30,061 nucleotides of DNA from the IMG/VR virus record IMGVR_UViG_3300027810_000040, positions 1 to 30,061 of that record; one strand, given 5' to 3'. The translations under genes were made by a program, and so were the position numbers. The DNA comes from a virus. Below the pieces are notes generated by a model. That model saw only the letters and a list, made by a program, of their open reading frames with translations. It had not been told where the DNA came from and did no database searches. Positions 671 through 12,741 of this stretch are shown in pieces. Positions within the stretch are counted from its first letter, which is position 1, and each line of letters begins with the position of its first letter.

Positions 671-800
671 GAATTGGTCATTAGAATTTGGATTATATCC
701 AGGTATATTATTTGGCTTTAGAAGTTATGAAGATGAAGAGAAAAGTATTCATGTGCTATACATACCTTTTGTGGATTTAGCTTTGTTTATTTACAACTAA
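654..800 (+). CDS. 48-residue small protein, translationally linked to nrdB
   Basis: An ATG at 654 opens 48 codons ending in TAA at 798-800. The protein has an acidic middle ('SYEDEEKS') and an aromatic, hydrophobic C-terminus ('VLYIPFVDLALFIYN'). It fits the only gap between the 60-residue gene and nrdB. Its start lies 17 bases inside the previous gene and its stop shares one base with the nrdB start (TAATG), the classic arrangement for translational coupling. Small proteins like this are common in phage early regions. I cannot assign a function, and the hydrophobic end is too short to call a secure membrane span. Confidence 0.6.
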   Translation: MGGESKNWSLEFGLYPGILFGFRSYEDEEKSIHVLYIPFVDLALFIYN

Positions 801-1768
801 TGGGACTTTTTGATGAGCGCGTAGCGTACAAACCGTTTGAATATCCTGAATACTACACTGAGGGTTGGTTAAAACAAGCACAAGCATTTTGGTTACACAC
901 TGAAATATCTATGCAAGGTGATCTTAAAGACTGGAATGAAAAGTTAGATGAAAAAGAAAAGCACTTAGTCGGGAATATACTTCTCGGCTTTGCTCAAACA
1001 GAATGTGCGGTATCAGATTACTGGACACAAAAAGTTGTTGGTTGGTTTCCTAAGCACGAGATACAGCAAATGGCTATGATGTTTGGATCACAAGAAACAA
1101 TTCACGCTGTTGCTTACAGCTATTTAAACGAAACTTTAAAGCTAGAAGACTATGAAGCGTTTTTACACGAACCGGCTACAGCGGAAAGATTTAACAACCT
1201 TGTTGCGTATAAAGGTAATAGTCGTACTGGTATTGCTAAGTCTCTTGCTGTTTTTTCTGCCTTTGCTGAAGGCGTTAGTCTTTATTCTGCTTTTGCAGTA
1301 CTCTATTCTTTCCAGTTAAGAAACTTATTGAAAGGTATAGGTCAACAAATGAAGTGGTCTGTAAGAGATGAATCTTTGCATAGTAAAATGGGTTGTCAAT
1401 TATTTAGACATATGTGTGAAGAGGATAATCAATTGCTTGATCTGTGTCGCGAGGACATCATTAAATCGGCTGAGGCGATGGTTTCATTAGAAACTAATTA
1501 CATTACTAAGATGTTTGAAAAGGGTGACATAGAGGGCATCAAATCAAACGATTTAAAACACTTTATAAAGAAAAGAACAAATGAAAAACTTGTGGAACTC
1601 GGTTATGTTGACCTGGGTAACTATTTTGCGTATGACACCGCTGCAGCAGCTAACCTTGATTGGTTTTATCATCTTACCGGGGGCGTCACTCATACTGATT
1701 TTTTCGCTATTCGTCCAACAGATTATTCAAAAGCAGGCGAAGATGAAGACTACGAAGACATATGGTAA
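800..1768 (+). CDS. nrdB: Ribonucleoside-diphosphate reductase, class I small subunit
   Basis: This 322-residue protein holds the diiron site and tyrosyl radical that drive NrdA, supplying deoxynucleotides for phage DNA synthesis. The carboxylate/histidine ligands are visible in order: Glu68 ('QTECAVSDYW', the position that is Asp84 in E. coli NrdB), Glu99 and His102 ('QETIHAVAY'), Glu157 ('FAEGV'), and Glu191 and His194 ('RDESLH'). Tyr106 sits four residues after His102, where the radical tyrosine belongs, so a normal tyrosyl-radical enzyme is expected. The acidic C-terminus ending in Trp ('DEDYEDIW') fits the tail that docks on the large subunit. It starts on a TAATG overlap with the upstream small gene. 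The order is nrdB first, with a 70-residue gene between the two subunits. Length is normal for phage NrdB. Confidence 0.95.
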   Translation: MGLFDERVAYKPFEYPEYYTEGWLKQAQAFWLHTEISMQGDLKDWNEKLDEKEKHLVGNILLGFAQTECAVSDYWTQKVVGWFPKHEIQQMAMMFGSQETIHAVAYSYLNETLKLEDYEAFLHEPATAERFNNLVAYKGNSRTGIAKSLAVFSAFAEGVSLYSAFAVLYSFQLRNLLKGIGQQMKWSVRDESLHSKMGCQLFRHMCEEDNQLLDLCREDIIKSAEAMVSLETNYITKMFEKGDIEGIKSNDLKHFIKKRTNEKLVELGYVDLGNYFAYDTAAAANLDWFYHLTGGVTHTDFFAIRPTDYSKAGEDEDYEDIW

Positions 1769-2012: not shown

Positions 2013-3731
2013 ATGTGGAACAATGACTGGAAAAAAGGAGAAGATTACCCTGCGTGGGGTGATAACGACGTATACAAAAAGACTATATCCGGGGGATATT
2101 TATTCGACGGAGAAAGTCCTAAAGAAGCATACGAAAGAGTCACTAAAACTGTTGCTCGTAGATTATATAAGCCGGAAATGGCCGAAACGTTTTTTAATTA
2201 CATCTGGAATGGCTGGCTTTGCTTGGCTAGTCCGGTACTCTCCAACACAGGGACTGATCGCGGCTTACCTATTAGTTGTTTTGGTATTGATGTTGCTGAT
2301 TCGATCCAAGATATTGGACAAAAAAATCTAGAAATGATGATGCTTGCTAAGCACGGAGGTGGAGTAGGCTTAGGATTAAACCAAATAAGACCTGCGGGCG
2401 CTAAAATAACAGGTAATGGAACATCAGACGGGGTTGTACCTTTTTGCAAGATATATGATTCAACAATCCTTGCAACAAATCAAGGATCAGTCAGAAGAGG
2501 TGCTGCTTCAATTAATATCAACATTGAACATGGAGACTTCGAGGAGTGGCTTGAAATCAGAGAGCCTAAGGGAGATGTTAATAGACAATCGCTTAATCTA
2601 CATCAGTGCGCAATTGTTGGTGATAAATTCATGCGTAAACTTGAACAAGGAGATGCTGACGCTAGGAATAGATGGAGTAAACTTCTTAGAAAACGAAAAG
2701 CAACTGGCGAGCCGTATATTATGTTTAAAGGCAATGTTAACAAAGCAAATCCAGAAGCATATAAACAGAACGGATTAAAAGTCCACATGACTAACATATG
2801 TAGTGAAATAGCATTGCATACCGACGAAACGCATAGCTTTGTATGCTGCTTGTCATCATTAAATTTAGCAAAATATGAAGAATGGAAAGACACTAACCTT
2901 ATATATGACGCCACTTGGTTTCTTGACGGTGTTATGGAAGAATTTATTCAAAAAGCAAAAGGTCTTAGAGGATTCGAAAATTCTATTCGCTCTGCACAGA
3001 AAGGGAGAGCATTGGGATTGGGAGTACTTGGATGGCACACGTACTTACAAGATAAGGGAATTCCTTTCGAGGGTTTACTTTCGCAGTTTGAAACTAGGAA
3101 AATATTTTCACAGATTAAAATTGAAAGTGAAAGAGCCTCCAGGAATCTTGCTGAAGTTTATGGCGAACCTTTATGGTGTGTCGGCACTGGTATGCGTAAT
3201 ACTCACCTGCGTGCTGTTGCTCCCACTGTTAGTAATAGTAAGCTTAGTGGGAATGTTTCGCCAGGAATAGAACCTTGGGCTGCTAATGTATTCACAGAAC
3301 AGGGAGCGAATGGTACTTTCATTAGAAAGAATCCAACGTTAGTTAAACTATTAAGAAAACACAAATTAAATAATGAGAAAATTTGGAGTAAAATATTGGC
3401 TGACGGAGGTAGTGTCCAAGATATCGTGGAGCTTGATAATATTACTATGGGCCACGACATACCTGCTAAAGAAGTGTTTAAAACGTTTAAGGAAATTAAT
3501 CAACTAGAATTAGTTGGTCAAGCTGGACTAAGGCAACAGTATATAGATCAGTCTGTTAGTTTAAACTTAGCTTTTCCTTCTACTGCTACACCAAAGTGGT
3601 TGAACAAAGTTCATTTTGATGCTTGGAAAAAAGGTGTTAAAACTTTATATTATACTAGAACTGAAAGCGTTCTACGTGGAGATATTGCGGCAGCGGCAAT
3701 GAATGAAGATTGTTTAGCGTGTGATGGCTAA
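2013..3731 (+). CDS. nrdA: Ribonucleoside-diphosphate reductase, class I large subunit (compact form)
   Basis: This is the catalytic subunit that reduces ribonucleotides to deoxyribonucleotides together with NrdB. Visible hallmarks are 'ASPVLSNTG' followed by Cys89, the catalytic triad 'NICSE' (Asn261, Cys263, Glu265), Cys278/Cys279 before 'LSSLNL', 'APTVSNSKLSGNVSPGIEP' in the barrel, 'FPSTATP' near 521, and the radical-transfer tyrosine pair Tyr546-Tyr547 in 'YYTRTES'. The last residues carry Cys567-x-x-Cys570, the swinging C-terminal dithiol that is re-reduced by a glutaredoxin or thioredoxin. At 572 residues it is much shorter than cellular NrdA (about 750) and starts almost directly in the catalytic domain. 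The ATP-cone allosteric domain is therefore absent, as in other small phage enzymes, and inhibition by dATP is probably lost (inference). It is the last gene before a strong terminator. Confidence 0.95.
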   Translation: MWNNDWKKGEDYPAWGDNDVYKKTISGGYLFDGESPKEAYERVTKTVARRLYKPEMAETFFNYIWNGWLCLASPVLSNTGTDRGLPISCFGIDVADSIQDIGQKNLEMMMLAKHGGGVGLGLNQIRPAGAKITGNGTSDGVVPFCKIYDSTILATNQGSVRRGAASININIEHGDFEEWLEIREPKGDVNRQSLNLHQCAIVGDKFMRKLEQGDADARNRWSKLLRKRKATGEPYIMFKGNVNKANPEAYKQNGLKVHMTNICSEIALHTDETHSFVCCLSSLNLAKYEEWKDTNLIYDATWFLDGVMEEFIQKAKGLRGFENSIRSAQKGRALGLGVLGWHTYLQDKGIPFEGLLSQFETRKIFSQIKIESERASRNLAEVYGEPLWCVGTGMRNTHLRAVAPTVSNSKLSGNVSPGIEPWAANVFTEQGANGTFIRKNPTLVKLLRKHKLNNEKIWSKILADGGSVQDIVELDNITMGHDIPAKEVFKTFKEINQLELVGQAGLRQQYIDQSVSLNLAFPSTATPKWLNKVHFDAWKKGVKTLYYTRTESVLRGDIAAAAMNEDCLACDG

Positions 3732-3762: not shown

Positions 3763-3794
3763 AAAGGGCTCTCGTAATTGAGGGCCCTTTTTTT
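3763..3794 (+). terminator. Intrinsic terminator of the RNR operon
   Basis: An 11-pair stem (3763-3773 with 3780-3790, one G·T wobble, GC-rich centre) closes a six-base loop. On the plus strand it is followed at once by a run of T. It lies 31 bases after the nrdA stop. On the minus strand the hairpin is followed only by TTTATATATATT, a weaker tract, so it may terminate the late operon from the other side less efficiently. The stop codon of the endolysin gene (3793-3795) falls in its T run. Confidence 0.85.
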
Positions 3795-4185
3795 ATTTCT
3801 TTGATGTTTTACTCCAACGAGCTCTTGCTCCTCGAATATCGACATGTGTAAAAGTATTGTATATACCTATGCCTCCTAGCTTAAAGCTTTCGCACTTCAT
3901 TAGATCATCTACAATAGCAGCCATATCCTTAGGCTTTATGTCGCTAGATTTAATATCGGCAGCTTTACCTTTTAAATGTTGTGAATTAACAGACCCACCA
4001 ACATCAGCATTATGTTCTTTGCAGCGATAAGCATTAGTTAAGTCTATCTTACCATATACATCTCTTATAACCTGTAGATTTTCCGCTAACTCTTGTACAT
4101 TTTTTTTAACAAACTCAGGCATAACGCAACCGCATTTGCATTCAAATTCATCCATACTAAAGTTGTCAGTAAGTTTTTTACTCAT
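3793..4185 (-). CDS. M15-family peptidase, probable endolysin
   Basis: This 130-residue protein matches the small zinc D-Ala-D-Ala carboxypeptidase/L,D-endopeptidase-like family (Peptidase M15). Visible elements are 'NAYRC' (Tyr53-Arg54), the zinc site 'SQHLKGKAADI' (His70, Asp77), and 'GGIGIY' followed by 'THVDIRG' (His114, Asp116), then 'ARW'. The N-terminus has a 'FECKCGC' patch (Cys16, 18, 20) typical of the subgroup. It has no signal peptide, so release to the cell wall would need a holin. The upstream 52-residue membrane protein, whose end it overlaps by eight bases, is the natural candidate. It is the last gene of the late minus-strand unit. The role is peptidoglycan cleavage at lysis. 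A virion-carried entry enzyme is less likely given this position. Confidence 0.88.
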   Translation of the reverse strand: MSKKLTDNFSMDEFECKCGCVMPEFVKKNVQELAENLQVIRDVYGKIDLTNAYRCKEHNADVGGSVNSQHLKGKAADIKSSDIKPKDMAAIVDDLMKCESFKLGGIGIYNTFTHVDIRGARARWSKTSKK

Positions 4186-4608: not shown

Positions 4609-7600
4609 TTATTTTTTACTAAATGTAGAGCCAAATCCCGATTTGAATGATGATTTTGATCTTTTAAAAGTTTTACCAAACCCTGATTTTCCCTTAGATT
4701 TTTTATTTTTAATCAATCCTAAGTCCCATTGGCTATAACCTAAGCTTAATGCAATTGATTGCCACATTTTAGTGTCATTGTCAACCGCAACTCTTAAATT
4801 ATCTGCTTTTCTAATCACTCTATCTAAAGGTAAATTGAAAGCTGCAGATACTAACTGTCCAACAGCATAGTAAGCAGGATTATCTAATCCATACCCTTTC
4901 ATTTTGTCACGAGTTGTTTTATAACTAAAAGCTCTAGCGGCACTCATTATTTTTCTCATTTTAGAGTCTACAGGAGGGGATATACTTAAAGCCCTTTGAG
5001 CAGCAACAGTATAATCAGGTCTGTCTTTAGTGTTTTGGTTGTAAATTTCTGCAATTATATTTTTTATAGTGGAAGCTATAGCTCCATATATACCAGCTCC
5101 ACGTAAAACCGAGTCTAGCATTGAATTAGCAACCCTAAGTTTTTTATTTTCCGCTGCTTCTTCGTCATCATCAAATGCCATCGCAAATAAAGCCGCTTGT
5201 AAACTAGAAAATATAATATTTTGTACAGCGGTGTAATATATTATTTTAGTAATATTAGTTTTAGCATCCCCTCTTCCATTCTTAAGATCTAAGAAAGCTT
5301 TTTTAGACAATCTCATGTATTGCATAGGTGTATTTGCAAAAGCCAATACGATACGCCCTAATGGACTTGCTTGTTGTTGAGATACTCTATCTGGTCTAGA
5401 TGATTGCTGAGTTTCTTCTGCTATTTCTTGAAAGTCTAAGAAAGCTTTTTCTTCCGCTTCATTTTTAGACATTCCGTCAGATACATATTTGTTTATTCTG
5501 TTCCTAATAAATGACGCTCCACCCATAGCGATAGCAAAACTATCCGCCATTTGTGTTGGCGTAAAACCTGCTTTAAGTAATGCAGCAAAAGCCGCTTTAG
5601 CTTTATTAGTTTGAGTTTCAGCCGCACTTGCTATTTCATCAGCATTAACATCAAGCTTCAAGCCAGATCTTCTTTGTTTTAAGAAATCGGAATTGAATAG
5701 CATAGAAAAATCAGCCCAAAATTGTTTTTGATTTGAAAAAGCTTTTGCTGCTTCAATAGGATTATTATCTCCCCAGTTTATAAAGTTAACTATAGATAAG
5801 GTTTGCAACAATGCTGATCTTGTATTAAAAAACATTATAGTACCTACGGAATCATTAACCCAGTTTAAAAACACGTTGGTTAGCTTATTAGCTCCAGATG
5901 GTCTATTACGCCCTGTTTTCATTCTGTAAAGTATATCCATCAATGCTTCTTTATAGTTCTCACCAAACTGAGCCTCAAGTTTACTTAGATTGTCTTTAGT
6001 AAAAATAGCGTCTGCGTTTTCTTGCCATTCTTTTAAAAACTCTGCACGCTTTTGAGTGTTTACTTTATTTATAGCGTCTGTAGTTACAGTACCTGCTATC
6101 CACTTACCTTGAGGTTCCGGGTAACCACTTAAAGCTTTGTCTAATTGCCTCGCGAATTTTCTTAATTTAGGGCTACCGTTTACAAAATCAACTAATTCAG
6201 TTTGTTCTTCTGTTGTTAAATCTGGTATATCAAATCCGTTTTTAGTCCATAAATATACTCTAACTGCAACATCGTTAGTAAATCCTGTTTTATTAACCTT
6301 ACCTAATCCGGCTGGGGTATTTTTTATAGTCTTTTTTAATTCTTTTATAATTGCAGCTGCATTTTGCTTATAGCTTTCAAATTCCCGAATACCTTTTGCG
6401 AACGGGTCAAATAAAGTTTCTTTAAACCAAGCTTGATGAGCGTCTCCTTGTTTCTTTATACCTGTTATTTTATATAATAACCCTGCAAAATCTTCTGCAG
6501 ATGGGGGTAGAAAGAATTTAAACCTTCCTTTTTTACTACCAAGCATTGTAGCTTTACTGCTAGATATTTTCTTACTAGCATCTAATCCAGTAACATCTTG
6601 TATAATAGTATTAAATTCAGTGTTTAGTTTTGAAGCGTCTGCAGCTGCTTGAGTTGCTGTCTTGCTAAACTGAAGTATTGTTACACCCTTTAAAAAGTCT
6701 ATTGCTCTTTGGTCATTGTATCTAGCCTTACCTTTTACACCTGTTTCAGTTTGTATTTTTCTTAATAATTTATCAAACTTTTTGGAAACTAAATTAATCT
6801 TAGCACCATCTAAAGTTTTATTAAGCTTAGCTTCGTTTTCGTCTACTAAGAATTCTTTCCATGCAATAAATATATCTTTAGCCTCAGTTTCATGTTCTAA
6901 TATTGCCTCTTTGACTTTTAAACCTTCGAAAGCAAAACCAGCAGTACTCATTTTTCTAATAGGTCCCCTCTGATCCGCACTAAGCAGGGATAAGAAACCA
7001 ACAAAAGCATCGGTATCTTTTGCTGCTATTGCGTTTTTCGCTTCACCTAAAAGCCAAGCTCTCACTTCCGCCGCTTCTTTGTTCATTGTTTGAACACTCC
7101 CTTCAAAATTAGATTTTATTCTTGTAATATCAGCTAATCCTTGCAGCCTAACACCATCTCTTAGTATGTAAGATCTATTTTTTACTGTATCTTCCTCAAG
7201 ACTAAAGCCGTATTTAGCAGGATCTCCTAATATTGGTTTTAATATTTGAGAATATACCTCCGAATTTTTAGTAATTCCACTTAAACCAAGCGTTCTAATA
7301 GATCTGCTTACATACCCTAAAAACAATTCAGCTTGCTTGCCTTTAGTAGCATCGTCTTTAGCGTTCTTAAAACTTGATTTAAAGTTGGATATAGCATAGT
7401 TATACCCAATAGTCTTTTGCTGGTATGAATATATTTTTTGGTTGGCAGTTATTGCGGTTATTAAAAACTTAACAGTATTAACATAATTTAATCTGTTAGA
7501 CAACAAATTTAATACTTCAGCCCTATATTCTCTTGTAGATCTTACACTTAAAATATCAGTACCAGCTGTCCAAACTAGTTTAGCTAAATCCTCAAAGTTG

Positions 7601-10600
7601 TTTACACTTTCCAGTCCGTCTAATATGTCTTGAATAACAGAACTTTTAAATTCATTATTTTTTACATTTGCTAATAACGGTCTTAAAGCGGTATCGATGT
7701 TTGCTTTTTGCGTAGCGGAGACGCTGCTACTAAATTGTATAATGTCAAAAGTAGATTTTTCTCCTTTGTACCTATCTAACTGTGACTGCAATTCGTTTAA
7801 TTGAGCCTCTATAATTATACCGGCTTGAACGTCTTGAGAAACATCAGGAGCTAGTTCTTGAATAGACTTAAGCTCAGCTAAATTTTCAGGTGTAGCGTAA
7901 TCAGCAACAACCTGCTTAGCTAATGGTTCAAGAATTTCTCTAAACAATTGCTTTTGTCTCTCTAATACAGTTGATTTATTACCTTTAACAAAATAGGTTA
8001 AGAATTCTCTTGGTTTAATCTTACTAATTTTAAATACAGGATTACCTTCCGCTGTAATTTCCCTACCAACTCTTTCAACAGGGAACAACTTACTATAGCT
8101 CTTCTTAATGCTTTTAATTGGCAATGCTTTAGTTATTATGTCAAATGTTTTTGGATCGTTTAGAAAGTCTATATAAGACCCAGGGATGACCGCATTAGGG
8201 TATACTCCAGCAATAGCCCCAAGCTTTTTGCTTAATTTCTTAAACAACTGCTTATTTACATAATTTTCAAGCCAGGAAACCACATAAGTATCTCTACCTT
8301 TTTTTACATCTATTGTTTCAGATAAAGTTCCTTTTTGTACTCTAATTCTTATTTCTTTTTCAAGATCTTGTTTGATGTCTTCAATTAAAGTATCGTCAAC
8401 AACATCTAGCTCATCAAAAGTAGCTTGTCCTCTTTCAACTGTACCGCTTCTGTCTATACTTTGTGTATCTTCTGTAGTACTAACTCCTTTAGCGTCATCT
8501 AAGGATTTTGCATATTCAGCATCAACATCTTTAAACATTAAAGATTGCCTAGTTTGTACCATCTTTTTTACATAACCAGCTAAGTCTTCGTTCTTAGCAG
8601 GGTTGTATGTTCGTACAGCAGCAAGAACTATTTCTCTAAGCACGTTTAAAGCATCTGCCTTTTCAAAACCTTGTTCTTTAGTTTGTATAAATTTCTGGTT
8701 AGCAATAGTATAAATATAAGCTTCAAACTTAGGTACTAGCTTGTTATCCAAATTGTTTGGTAAAGGATTTTTTCCGGTATAATTGGTTCGAACTTCACCC
8801 TCCATTCCTTCGTCATAGATATCCATTATTTCCTGAGATGTTTCATCTCTTGGGCCTAAGTCTGTAGTTCTTATTGGTTTTTTAGGTCTAACTACTTTTG
8901 GTTTTGGTTTAGCTTCTTTTTTAACCTCTTGCTTTATAGCGGATCTACCTGACACAACTCTTTCTTCTGCTTCTTCAAGTAGCCTTTCGGCTTTAGTTAC
9001 GTTTTGTTCAAGCGCTGGGTTATCTGGATCTTCTGCAAAAGCATCTAAAGCATCATCTAAAGCATTTTCAAGATCTAATATTTCTTGACTAGAAGAAAAT
9101 TGCATAGCGTTTTCAGGGTCTCGTAAACCTGGATCTTCTGAAACTAGGTTACCTGATTTTGCTTCTGCTTTTTTAATTGCTTCTATTGCTTTATCACTTA
9201 CTTCGCCTCCTTCTTTTAATCCGGAAGTATATTCTTTTAACCAATTATAAACACCACGGGCATCGTCAAAATGTAAATCCTCATGGTTTTTAATACCAGA
9301 TTTAAGTCCTAACTTACTTATTATGTTATTAAACCATAATCTTATTTTGTCAAAGAGCGAAGGATCATAATCTAACTCACCAGAAAGAATTGCATCTGAT
9401 AAGTAGTTTAAAAATTCTGTAGCTTGCTTGTCAGCTCCCTGTGTATCTTTTATTTTTTTGTTTATAGCTTTTCTAACCTTTGACGGCAATATAGCCATCA
9501 ATTCGTCGTAATTAGTTTTTTGGTTTAAGTAGCTACCTATTAAAGAATTAAGTATAGGGTGTATAATTTCATGCGAAGTTACTGTCCATTTACCTGTTTG
9601 CTTAGCCATCTCTTTGTTTATAAAAAGATTACCAGCACCTAAATACACTCCATCAGATTCTTCTGCTAATTTAGCAACACCTGCTTTTGTTAAAGGTTTA
9701 AAATCAGGATCAGCTTTTACTTTTCCTTCTTTTACATTTTTTAAATAAGTTCTTTCTTTTCTTTTTAAAGCTCTATATATAGCGGTTACATATGCATCGC
9801 TACTTTCAAATATTCTTGGAAGCTTATTATCTCCGAAGCCTAGCTTCTTTGCGAAATTAACAACAGCTGCGGTATTCTTTGTAAATTTTCCTTCAAAAAC
9901 TTTATTATCATTATCTAAAAAGGTTTGAGCATCTATCAATAATTTTGTTTGTTGCTCTTTTAAAACCTTAAGCTTTTCATCTATTAAAACTTGTTCCCCG
10001 GGTATTGCGTTTTTTCTTTGGTTTTCTAAACTGGTTATATTACTTTGCGAGTCTATAACTTTTAACAGCTCTGTTGACATACGTTTGTCAGAAAGAAACT
10101 TCGGCATTTTATTTATATTACTACTAAACTTTTGAACTTCTTGAGTTAGTCCATCAGCTTCTTTCTGTGTTAGATCACCATTTTTTACCCAAGAGTTAAA
10201 TACTTTTTCAACTCTATTAGGATCTTGCACAGTTAATTCTCTTAAGCGTCGTACTTTTTCAGTATCGCTCATTATACTTCGCTTACCGCCTCCTAAGGTA
10301 GATATACTACCCATACCTCCCGCAAAACCACCTGCAGCAAATGATAATACAGATGTGTTTATAAAATCCTCGTAGCTATAAGTATCTTTTAATAAAGGTT
10401 TACCAATACCCTTGTTTAATACTTTGTTTAAGCCAACCTCACCTAATTGTTGTACGTTTTCTTGTACAAATTCTTTCCCACCCTCACTAGCAATTATTGC
10501 ACCGAACTTAGCTAGTTTAGTTTGAAGTGGGGCAGCAACTATTTTACCGAAGTTTCTTTTTACGGCCGCGGCATTTCCAGATGCTTTAATAAGCTGTTTA

Positions 10601-12741
10601 ATCATATCGAAAGAAGAACCTTTTCCAGTGCCTTTAAATATTTTATCTATAAGACCTGTCCTAGGATTTATAGGTGTAGTTAAAGCAAACAAAGCAGCCA
10701 TGCCTAAGCTTGCTTCGTTAGCAATAGATTCAGCTTCGTCTAACCCCATACCCGCATCTAGAGCAGCGGTCTTAGCTTGGTTATATCCAGTCATAGCTCC
10801 ATATCCAGATTGGAATATTACAGCGTCAGCCATTCCTTTACTTATTCCTAGCGGTATTTTTTTACCAAAAGTATCCCATGTTCCTTTAGCTCCGCCTGTA
10901 ACACCTCTGTAATTTATACCAGCACCAAAACGCTTTGTCTTGTTAACGCCTGCCTCCATCCTAGCTAGACGAGCCTTAGATAAATTTTTAACTTTACCTA
11001 AATATTTTAAAGAAGCCACTTTCCTTAAAGTGCTAAATCCTTTCTGACCAGCAATCTGTATACCTAACTCCCCTATAACTTTTCCTGCTATTATTGATCC
11101 ACCAAACCCATCGAAATCAGAATCAAAAGTATAATTGCCTTTTTCAATAGCAACATCTATAGCTTTTCTATCTTTATTAGATAGGGTTCGCGATACATCA
11201 AAACCATTAGTTATGTTCTTAATACTACCATTAGCTTGTTTTATGTATTCTTTGCCGTTTAGGGTAACTTTTTTTCCCTCTGCATATAAATAATTTATAT
11301 TATCATCACCTCTTAAAGCTCTTCTATTCGATTTATTTCTTAACCTTTTTTTCTCTTCGCCTAATACTTCTGTCTCTGATTTTGAAAAAGGAAGAGGTAT
11401 ATTCCAGCCATCTATCCAATCAAAAGTATCCTCAATAGCATCACCTAAACCTGTAAGAGCATTCCCTATAGTTTTTCCAGTTCCATACGTTCCAGTAGAA
11501 AGACCTGTTTCTTTTTGCTCATTTCTATTCTGTTGCGCCTCTTTTATATTATCAAGCTGAATAGCTTCATATTCGTTTATAGCATTCCAATTGCTAGAAT
11601 TCCAAATTTCTAAATCTTTAAACTCTAAATGAGATCCGTAATTGTATTTTTTAGGATCCTCCATTAGCTTAGTATCCGCCACGCCCATTGCTTCAGGCAG
11701 CGTCATATCCTTGTACTCTGCTGGGTTATTTTTAATTTCTCTCAGTAGCACTCTCTCTATGTTTCTAGAACCTGTCTCATTCAGGTATTCGTCAAAATAC
11801 ATTTTAAGATCCTGTTGCATTGTTAAATTATCAGGCAATCCTTCAGAATATTTTCCATCTTTCTGCTCGTAAGCGCCTACTTCTTTTTGCTTTTGAAATT
11901 CACTTATATAACCCTTTCTAGTTAGGAACCCTTGAAAGTCATTAGCACTAATATTATACTTTGAAAACTCCTTTTTGCTTTCTGGACTAGTTAGATAGTA
12001 TTCTTCTACAAAGTCTTTATTTTTATTTCTATTGTAAGCTAAATTTGAATCAATGTCACTAAAATCTAAATCTTCACTACTGTATAAGTCTTCAGCTTGT
12101 TTGTCAATACTTACGTTATTGCGATAACCATTGTTTTTATAAAAAAGTTCAGGGTCATTAGCTTCCTCTTCATCGTCTTTATCATCTTTTTGAACCCACT
12201 TAGAAATTAAAGCAGCCATTGTACTAAGAGGATCAGCATTTGGTAACATGCTTTTAGTTTTAATATTAGCGAAAAGCATAGGGCTATTCTCCTCTAGACC
12301 TGTCCATAGATCTTTAAAAGTATTGCTTGCTCCATCACTAAAACTATTATTAGGATCATCATCAAAAGCTCTGGATAGCCATGTGCCATCCGATTTCGAT
12401 TCTTTTAGTTCTCGCTCACGCTTACCTCTATTGTTTTCAGAGTTCCACCTATTATTTGGTTGCCCCGAAAAACCATTTCCCGATTGTGATTCCGTAGCGT
12501 CTTGATTTGACTCCACAGCTGGAACCGCACTTGCAGAGTCGTTTGTCTTTGCTGGTATAGCTCCTACTAAAGATGAAAAATCATCTATGCTTTTATTATA
12601 TCCATTATTTTTAAATAAACTGTACGAGTCTTTAAGTGCTTCTGGATTAGAACTAATTAATTTTTTATAACCGTCTAAATCACCATTATAACCATTGCTA
12701 GCAAATAGGTTAAACGAGTCGTTTAATGCTTCTTCGTTCAT
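4609..12741 (-). CDS. Giant internal virion (ejection) protein with zincin-like site
   Basis: This 2710-residue protein is the largest in the window and the third of a small-medium-giant set (204, 470, 2710) like the T7 internal core proteins that leave the head with the DNA. Visible parts: two 30-residue 'NGY' repeats at 4-63; an acidic low-complexity stretch to about 200; glycine-rich hydrophobic helices between about 540 and 860; 'HEIIH' at 1057-1061 with Glu1109 as possible third ligand, a zinc-peptidase signature; a helical stretch at 1335-1415 resembling sigma region 2; long helical regions; a hydrophobic segment at about 2496-2523; and a basic tail with 'SGFGKTF'/'SGFGSTF' repeats. The sequence 'QFS' recurs at 1214, 1669 and 2024. 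The likely role is DNA ejection and early takeover (inference). An enzymatic polyvalent protein is the alternative view. No polymerase motif was convincingly found. Confidence 0.85.
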   Translation of the reverse strand: MNEEALNDSFNLFASNGYNGDLDGYKKLISSNPEALKDSYSLFKNNGYNKSIDDFSSLVGAIPAKTNDSASAVPAVESNQDATESQSGNGFSGQPNNRWNSENNRGKRERELKESKSDGTWLSRAFDDDPNNSFSDGASNTFKDLWTGLEENSPMLFANIKTKSMLPNADPLSTMAALISKWVQKDDKDDEEEANDPELFYKNNGYRNNVSIDKQAEDLYSSEDLDFSDIDSNLAYNRNKNKDFVEEYYLTSPESKKEFSKYNISANDFQGFLTRKGYISEFQKQKEVGAYEQKDGKYSEGLPDNLTMQQDLKMYFDEYLNETGSRNIERVLLREIKNNPAEYKDMTLPEAMGVADTKLMEDPKKYNYGSHLEFKDLEIWNSSNWNAINEYEAIQLDNIKEAQQNRNEQKETGLSTGTYGTGKTIGNALTGLGDAIEDTFDWIDGWNIPLPFSKSETEVLGEEKKRLRNKSNRRALRGDDNINYLYAEGKKVTLNGKEYIKQANGSIKNITNGFDVSRTLSNKDRKAIDVAIEKGNYTFDSDFDGFGGSIIAGKVIGELGIQIAGQKGFSTLRKVASLKYLGKVKNLSKARLARMEAGVNKTKRFGAGINYRGVTGGAKGTWDTFGKKIPLGISKGMADAVIFQSGYGAMTGYNQAKTAALDAGMGLDEAESIANEASLGMAALFALTTPINPRTGLIDKIFKGTGKGSSFDMIKQLIKASGNAAAVKRNFGKIVAAPLQTKLAKFGAIIASEGGKEFVQENVQQLGEVGLNKVLNKGIGKPLLKDTYSYEDFINTSVLSFAAGGFAGGMGSISTLGGGKRSIMSDTEKVRRLRELTVQDPNRVEKVFNSWVKNGDLTQKEADGLTQEVQKFSSNINKMPKFLSDKRMSTELLKVIDSQSNITSLENQRKNAIPGEQVLIDEKLKVLKEQQTKLLIDAQTFLDNDNKVFEGKFTKNTAAVVNFAKKLGFGDNKLPRIFESSDAYVTAIYRALKRKERTYLKNVKEGKVKADPDFKPLTKAGVAKLAEESDGVYLGAGNLFINKEMAKQTGKWTVTSHEIIHPILNSLIGSYLNQKTNYDELMAILPSKVRKAINKKIKDTQGADKQATEFLNYLSDAILSGELDYDPSLFDKIRLWFNNIISKLGLKSGIKNHEDLHFDDARGVYNWLKEYTSGLKEGGEVSDKAIEAIKKAEAKSGNLVSEDPGLRDPENAMQFSSSQEILDLENALDDALDAFAEDPDNPALEQNVTKAERLLEEAEERVVSGRSAIKQEVKKEAKPKPKVVRPKKPIRTTDLGPRDETSQEIMDIYDEGMEGEVRTNYTGKNPLPNNLDNKLVPKFEAYIYTIANQKFIQTKEQGFEKADALNVLREIVLAAVRTYNPAKNEDLAGYVKKMVQTRQSLMFKDVDAEYAKSLDDAKGVSTTEDTQSIDRSGTVERGQATFDELDVVDDTLIEDIKQDLEKEIRIRVQKGTLSETIDVKKGRDTYVVSWLENYVNKQLFKKLSKKLGAIAGVYPNAVIPGSYIDFLNDPKTFDIITKALPIKSIKKSYSKLFPVERVGREITAEGNPVFKISKIKPREFLTYFVKGNKSTVLERQKQLFREILEPLAKQVVADYATPENLAELKSIQELAPDVSQDVQAGIIIEAQLNELQSQLDRYKGEKSTFDIIQFSSSVSATQKANIDTALRPLLANVKNNEFKSSVIQDILDGLESVNNFEDLAKLVWTAGTDILSVRSTREYRAEVLNLLSNRLNYVNTVKFLITAITANQKIYSYQQKTIGYNYAISNFKSSFKNAKDDATKGKQAELFLGYVSRSIRTLGLSGITKNSEVYSQILKPILGDPAKYGFSLEEDTVKNRSYILRDGVRLQGLADITRIKSNFEGSVQTMNKEAAEVRAWLLGEAKNAIAAKDTDAFVGFLSLLSADQRGPIRKMSTAGFAFEGLKVKEAILEHETEAKDIFIAWKEFLVDENEAKLNKTLDGAKINLVSKKFDKLLRKIQTETGVKGKARYNDQRAIDFLKGVTILQFSKTATQAAADASKLNTEFNTIIQDVTGLDASKKISSSKATMLGSKKGRFKFFLPPSAEDFAGLLYKITGIKKQGDAHQAWFKETLFDPFAKGIREFESYKQNAAAIIKELKKTIKNTPAGLGKVNKTGFTNDVAVRVYLWTKNGFDIPDLTTEEQTELVDFVNGSPKLRKFARQLDKALSGYPEPQGKWIAGTVTTDAINKVNTQKRAEFLKEWQENADAIFTKDNLSKLEAQFGENYKEALMDILYRMKTGRNRPSGANKLTNVFLNWVNDSVGTIMFFNTRSALLQTLSIVNFINWGDNNPIEAAKAFSNQKQFWADFSMLFNSDFLKQRRSGLKLDVNADEIASAAETQTNKAKAAFAALLKAGFTPTQMADSFAIAMGGASFIRNRINKYVSDGMSKNEAEEKAFLDFQEIAEETQQSSRPDRVSQQQASPLGRIVLAFANTPMQYMRLSKKAFLDLKNGRGDAKTNITKIIYYTAVQNIIFSSLQAALFAMAFDDDEEAAENKKLRVANSMLDSVLRGAGIYGAIASTIKNIIAEIYNQNTKDRPDYTVAAQRALSISPPVDSKMRKIMSAARAFSYKTTRDKMKGYGLDNPAYYAVGQLVSAAFNLPLDRVIRKADNLRVAVDNDTKMWQSIALSLGYSQWDLGLIKNKKSKGKSGFGKTFKRSKSSFKSGFGSTFSKK
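12553..12732 (-). repeat. Two tandem 30-residue repeats at the N-terminus of the giant protein
   Basis: Residues 4-33 and 34-63 align without gaps: 'EALNDSFNLFASNGYNG' against 'EALKDSYSLFKNNGYNK', followed by a shared D-x-(D/G)-(F/Y)-x-x-L pattern. The period is exactly 30 residues (90 bases). This is a small helical repeat. Its place at the very start of a head-internal protein suggests a docking or packaging role, which is inference. Confidence 0.8.

Follow-up and report, generated by a model that had tools for sequence, protein, structure and literature searches.

A giant virion protein in a marine flavobacterial phage

The window, the whole 30,061-base stretch of an IMG/VR virus record analysed here, carries on its minus strand an open reading frame for a protein of 2710 residues, referred to below as the giant (Table 1). 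Directly downstream of it lies a gene for an endolysin-like M15-type peptidase, which is a separate wall peptidase and no zincin. Two genes on the opposite strand were read by eye as the small and large subunits of ribonucleotide reductase. Portal and capsid searches placed the window near the Flavobacterium elemo phages and the Cellulophaga phages phi40:1, Calle_1 and phi18:3, as well as near Maribacter phage Panino and MW202828, and the window phage is a member of a marine flavobacterial phage lineage.

The giants that occupy the same place in phi40:1 (gp101) and phi18:3 (gp123) are annotated as structural from MS/MS. The virion location of the window giant is therefore well supported, on purely positional grounds: a module comparison among 89 giants detected none common to the window giant and those of phi40:1 and phi18:3. 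The sequence-only reading had called the giant head-internal. Virion location stands by synteny with the MS/MS-detected giants, while the placement inside the head would follow by analogy with the capsid cargo of the crassvirus PhicrAss001 (gp45-gp50; PMC10172136). Like the window giant, this is large cargo in muzzle-bearing podoviruses of Bacteroidetes, but it consists of RNA polymerase-related giants, and neither a protease nor proteolysis is mentioned in PMC10172136. A 1447-aa protein encoded next to the window giant shows weak similarity to the C-terminal domain of the crassvirus muzzle (E 0.0042, below the cut-off). Used as a query, this neighbour retrieved 80 related viral loci, a retrieval in which the zincin played no part.

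Table 1. Features of the giant and of neighbouring genes in the window. Residue numbers refer to the giant.
Feature	Residues	Positions	Strand	Basis
Ribonucleotide reductase small and large subunits		800..1768 and 2013..3731	+	Reading by eye
M15-type peptidase, endolysin-like		3793..4185	-	Peptidase_M15_3, E 2.9e-21
Giant virion (cargo) protein, modular, 2710 aa		4609..12741	-	Open reading frame; position shared with MS/MS-detected giants of phi40:1 and phi18:3
Conserved C-terminal module	2036-2690	4672..6636	-	In 63-69 of 89 giants
Linker motif copy 3, L-QFSKT, directly before the C-terminal module	2023-2028	6658..6675	-	Many BLAST modules begin at 2023-2043
Linker motif copy 2, I-QFSSS	1668-1673	7723..7740	-	BLAST modules of L006, L048 and L031 end at 1671-1674
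Middle module, weakly sigma-70-region-2-like (AVRTYNPAKNEDLAGYVKKMVQTRQ)	1340-1668	7738..8724	-	Pfam Sigma70_r2 E=0.11, well below the cut-off; 47/89 giants
Linker motif copy 1, M-QFSSS, candidate processing site next to the zincin on its C-terminal side	1213-1218	9088..9105	-	Relatives repeatedly have a site at +140 to +160 from HExxH
Zincin-like domain (core about 970-1130)	950-1196	9154..9894	-	Alignments of 29 and 80 sequences; AlphaFold; dN/dS
Second HExxH, HEDLH, probably incidental	1153-1157	9271..9285	-	Confined to the window, L002 and L003
Glu1109, proposed third zinc ligand, second conserved helix	1109	9415..9417	-	Invariant in 96/96; helix 156-172 of the AlphaFold model
HEIIH, two putative zinc-ligand His and putative catalytic Glu1058	1057-1061	9559..9573	-	Invariant in 96/96 unique domains
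Tandem repeat of ~37 residues at the N-terminus (EALNDSFNLFASNGYNGDLDGYKKLI...)	1-60	12560..12741	-

Four invariant residues in the zincin-like domain

The giant had been proposed from its letters to contain a gluzincin-type site, with HEIIH in the context 'KWTVTSHEIIH' and Glu1109 in 'ATEFLNYLSD' as the third ligand. Both stretches read as described, at nucleotides 9573-9559 and 9417-9415. The giant has just seven histidines; with its composition 0.0012 HExxH motifs would be expected, and two are present. The other one, HEDLH, was dropped as an active site because it is lineage-specific, being confined to the window and its two closest relatives.

Among 29 relatives, whose mean column identity is 23%, the sole invariant columns are His1057, Glu1058, His1061 and Glu1109, and the same four were again the sole invariant columns in an alignment of 80 sequences. 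The quartet is intact in all 96 unique domains, among them 31/31 domains from scans whose search patterns contained no HExxH. An Asp or Glu is present seven positions after the ligand Glu in 93 of the 96. Domain homologues lacking HExxH were looked for among these 96 and none was found. Since exactly the proposed ligands and the catalytic Glu are invariant, the gluzincin reading is supported, as it is by the acidic residue at +7 and the predicted helix layout; sequence conservation thus argues for a genuine and strongly conserved metallopeptidase site in the giant. The zincin has a dN/dS of 0.083 in the comparison of the window with L003. The spacing from the first His to the Glu varies between 48 and 107 residues, which fits the variable insert reported for MPTase domains. 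For scanning viral contigs the family-wide alignment was too diverse and a closer subset was used instead. A scan of genome contigs found only two weak relatives, both in metagenome-assembled genomes.

Predicted fold and relation to polyvalent-protein peptidases

AlphaFold models were obtained for the window zincin domain with 29 sequences (pLDDT 83, pTM 0.74) and for a compact homologue with 80 sequences (pLDDT 83, pTM 0.65). In both models an N-terminal helix is followed by a strand, helices, a two-strand hairpin, the HExxH helix and the later Glu helix. The prediction places HExxH and Glu on a pair of helices that lie behind a small core of strand and helix. Two Foldseek searches of the PDB with the models gave no significant match, to a zincin or otherwise (best E 0.85 and 0.95). 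Selecase, a very small metallopeptidase, had the highest probability among the matches listed in the second search (0.20), and at E 1.4 this match may be read as only a hint. Among the BFVD fold matches with a probability of 1.00 is a Flavobacterium phage protein, the structural protein of elemoC_14-1A, and the domain profile finds the giant of elemoA_1-5B (HEIFH at 1516, E=2.2e-5). As the elemo giants match by fold and profile, the domain is present in a cultured phage.

Searches of Pfam, PHROGs and PDB sequences with the window protein and its family returned no family above the cut-off, and a Pfam search with the 29 members at E <= 0.1 returned no zincin or other plausible family. A PHROG that has no name (12413) matched over the zincin with E 0.0044. 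In hhalign the zincin of the N4 virion RNA polymerase aligned in register (P=0.035, probability 1.5%) with weaker controls, in a comparison restricted to the N4-type clade.

Zincin-like MPTase domains in phage-type polyvalent proteins were described by Iyer, Burroughs and Aravind (2017; PMC5512222). The order of elements in our models agrees with their layout, the comparison being made by that order. Shared features are the HExxH helix, the later Glu helix, a small three-stranded core, the variable insert between the helices and the setting within a giant, multidomain virion protein whose modules can be exchanged. Unlike these MPTases, the window domain has no sequence match to any Pfam family, and the N4-type comparison is borderline. 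The domain is probably a form of the polyvalent-protein MPTases that has diverged in sequence, and it is accompanied by a candidate processing code described below. N4 gp50 (HELVH at residue 2228) is likewise a giant virion protein with HExxH, and its G-x-hairpin-HExxH segment aligns in register. It contains a recognised RNA polymerase, unlike the window giant, and it has no QFS repeats and is full-length in the virion (PMC5512222). DdrB of the phage P1 darA operon also carries a C-terminal HExxH and is reported to be cut before being packaged into the head (PMC5512222), but it is far smaller (995 aa) and has no QFS motif.

Modules of the giants

The modules detected occur in between 5 and 86 of the 89 giants. 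The zincin accounts for the highest figure (86, versus 5-69 for the other modules), largely by construction, as most giants were gathered via the zincin. Its unbiased frequency is given by the giants fetched via the muzzle-like neighbour, 34 of 36 of which have the domain; the remaining two have a different HExxH. The modular content fits the polyvalent-protein class. The middle module could be a virion-carried transcription factor, an idea that its resemblance by eye and the weak Pfam match offer as only a lead. The N-terminal repeat stretch is common to the window and MW202828 giants (E about 1e-12) and is possibly a packaging or docking signal.

Further modules were noticed outside the window. 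By eye, 23/89 giants contain an HAD-like phosphatase module ('DFDDTLAxTKS ... ILTARP') that has no match in Pfam and is absent from the window; in the giants of L103 and L163 it lies at residues about 1630-1700. One giant has an AAA_33/zeta-toxin-like kinase domain (2.9e-12) and one a weak LPD18 match (0.0016). In the open frame of the MW202828 giant (L004 20001-31580), HEFGH occurs at 1621 and again at 2506; neither of these further HExxH motifs is matched by the window family profile. These are perhaps different zincins in the same role.

A QFS linker motif at module joints

Inspection of the module joints led us to define, after the fact, a motif phi-Q-F-S-[K/R/S]-[T/N/S] that recurs at joints between exchangeable modules, C-terminal to the zincin. 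This QFS linker motif in zincin-bearing giants is new. QFS[KRS] was observed 126 times in the zincin giants versus 5.6 times in shuffles, and at least two copies of [QE]FS[KRS] were present in 37/89 giants versus 0.43 expected; the giants are mutually related, so that neither count is made of independent cases. Other ORFs of the same phages showed no excess of QFS[KRS] (20 observed, 17.3 expected). Considered by itself, the window giant would have three copies by chance with a probability of 3.7e-4, a figure for a motif defined afterwards, and two of its three copies read QFSSS rather than QFSKT.

Sites are dense on the C-terminal side of the zincin, whereas upstream of it their density is that of the background. 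Of the 12233 BLAST module ends, 2110 fall no more than 10 residues from a site, whereas 200 random draws averaged 320 and never exceeded 521 (about 6.6-fold enrichment); control motifs reached 0.75-1.67-fold at 20 residues. The flanks of motif copies within one protein are unrelated (6.5% identity), and the multiple copies are therefore not products of module duplication. At the DNA level, 82 sites comprise 51 distinct 15-mers, with Ser encoded by both TCN and AGY codons near background. The use of both Ser codon families and the varied DNA indicate selection on the protein and not on the DNA.

The strict form of the motif is missing in about half of the giants (45/89 giants >1400 aa). QFS[KRS] repeats were found neither in the MW202828 giant nor in the zincin-bearing giant of the cultured elemoA_1-5B, a 3667-aa structural protein that is larger than the window giant and shares its domain. 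A search of the elemo and distant giants for an alternative repeated motif gave none that was convincing.

Proposed self-processing of the giant and alternative readings

We propose that the giant is a self-processing polyprotein with an embedded gluzincin-type protease that cuts at phi-QFS-[K/R/S] linkers, a reading to which we give a probability of roughly 0.55. Whether a phage polyprotein cut in this way releases interchangeable cargo proteins seems to us an even bet. On this view the giant would belong to the phage-type polyvalent proteins, with its modules strung together round one embedded zincin-like metallopeptidase and packed in the virion. Zinc would be bound by His1057, His1061 and Glu1109, with Glu1058 as the general base. 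Cuts at linkers C-terminal to the zincin, at residues about 1214, 1669 and 2024, would detach a piece made of the N-terminus and the zincin from the C-terminal module and the cargo modules. This would happen either while the head matures or once the protein has been delivered into the cell. The scissile bond may be Q|F. Thermolysin-like enzymes prefer a bulky residue at P1', which Q|F would suit.

The giant itself, neighbouring internal proteins and a host target at entry had all been named as possible substrates by the sequence-only reading. We now favour the giant because of the linker motif, which suggests this substrate, short of proof. Self-processing appears to be the most economical reading given that the zincin is nearly constant while the other modules vary, and that the motif occurs almost only in zincin giants and mostly at joints. 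PMC5512222 predicted peptidase domains in giant virion proteins, left their substrates open and proposed autoprocessing without naming sites; a search of its text found no mention of linker, processing-site or FSR motifs. The invariance of the quartet, the zincin-like layout, the multi-copy motif at joints and the protein-level selection on it were computed here.

The zincin might instead be an injected effector that cuts a host protein, for example a defence or transcription factor, while the giant stays uncut and QFS serves as another kind of linker such as a docking or packaging tag. PMC5512222 offers a host target as one possibility for MPTase domains and reports that the MPTase-bearing N4 virion RNA polymerase is packaged unprocessed, and some zincin-bearing giants lack the motif. 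Yet effectors usually vary, whereas the zincin is the most constant module, and a multi-copy motif located at joints almost only in zincin giants would be left unexplained; we consider this reading unlikely. Many phages process head proteins, and the peptidase is probably carried in the virion beside other cargo, judging from synteny, so its targets could be other virion proteins, or the cell envelope at entry, instead of the giant. The other proteins of the same phages, however, have no excess of the motif (20 observed, 17 expected), and a separate M15-type wall peptidase gene sits directly downstream of the giant, which makes such a substrate distinctly improbable.

A catalytically dead fold with a zinc-binding or purely structural role is harder still to credit: domains of this kind can lose activity, but the general base Glu1058, which is structurally dispensable, is as invariant as the ligands (96/96), and the dN/dS of the zincin is low at 0.083. 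Equally little weight falls on QFS sites as DNA recombination joints for module swapping, with an unrelated peptidase. Module boundaries do coincide with the sites, and the window and L003 differ most in the module that the sites at 1669 and 2024 enclose (37% identity), but the DNA of the sites is unconserved, and their codon diversity led us to reject recombination linkers at the DNA level.

With a near-universal, single-copy zincin and a candidate cleavage motif at the joints, this lineage opens the substrate question to direct test. Should cleavage take place at the motif, the start and end of each injected module would be marked as well, which would help to assign functions to many uncharacterised virion cargo proteins. 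Self-processing of the giant, if true, would represent a prokaryotic counterpart of polyprotein processing with a cleavage code that can be read from sequence.

Gene splits near motif sites in L110, L164 and L093 were considered as natural fissions and rejected, as they are probably indels. The split copies of L110 and L164 are 99.9-100% identical to the intact L111 and L163, and that of L093 is 95% identical to the intact L096 over part of its length. A further split of the giant, in L066 (20525-24544), falls immediately ahead of the zincin and leaves it at the start of a 346-aa ORF of its own; this is either a natural fission or a frameshift.
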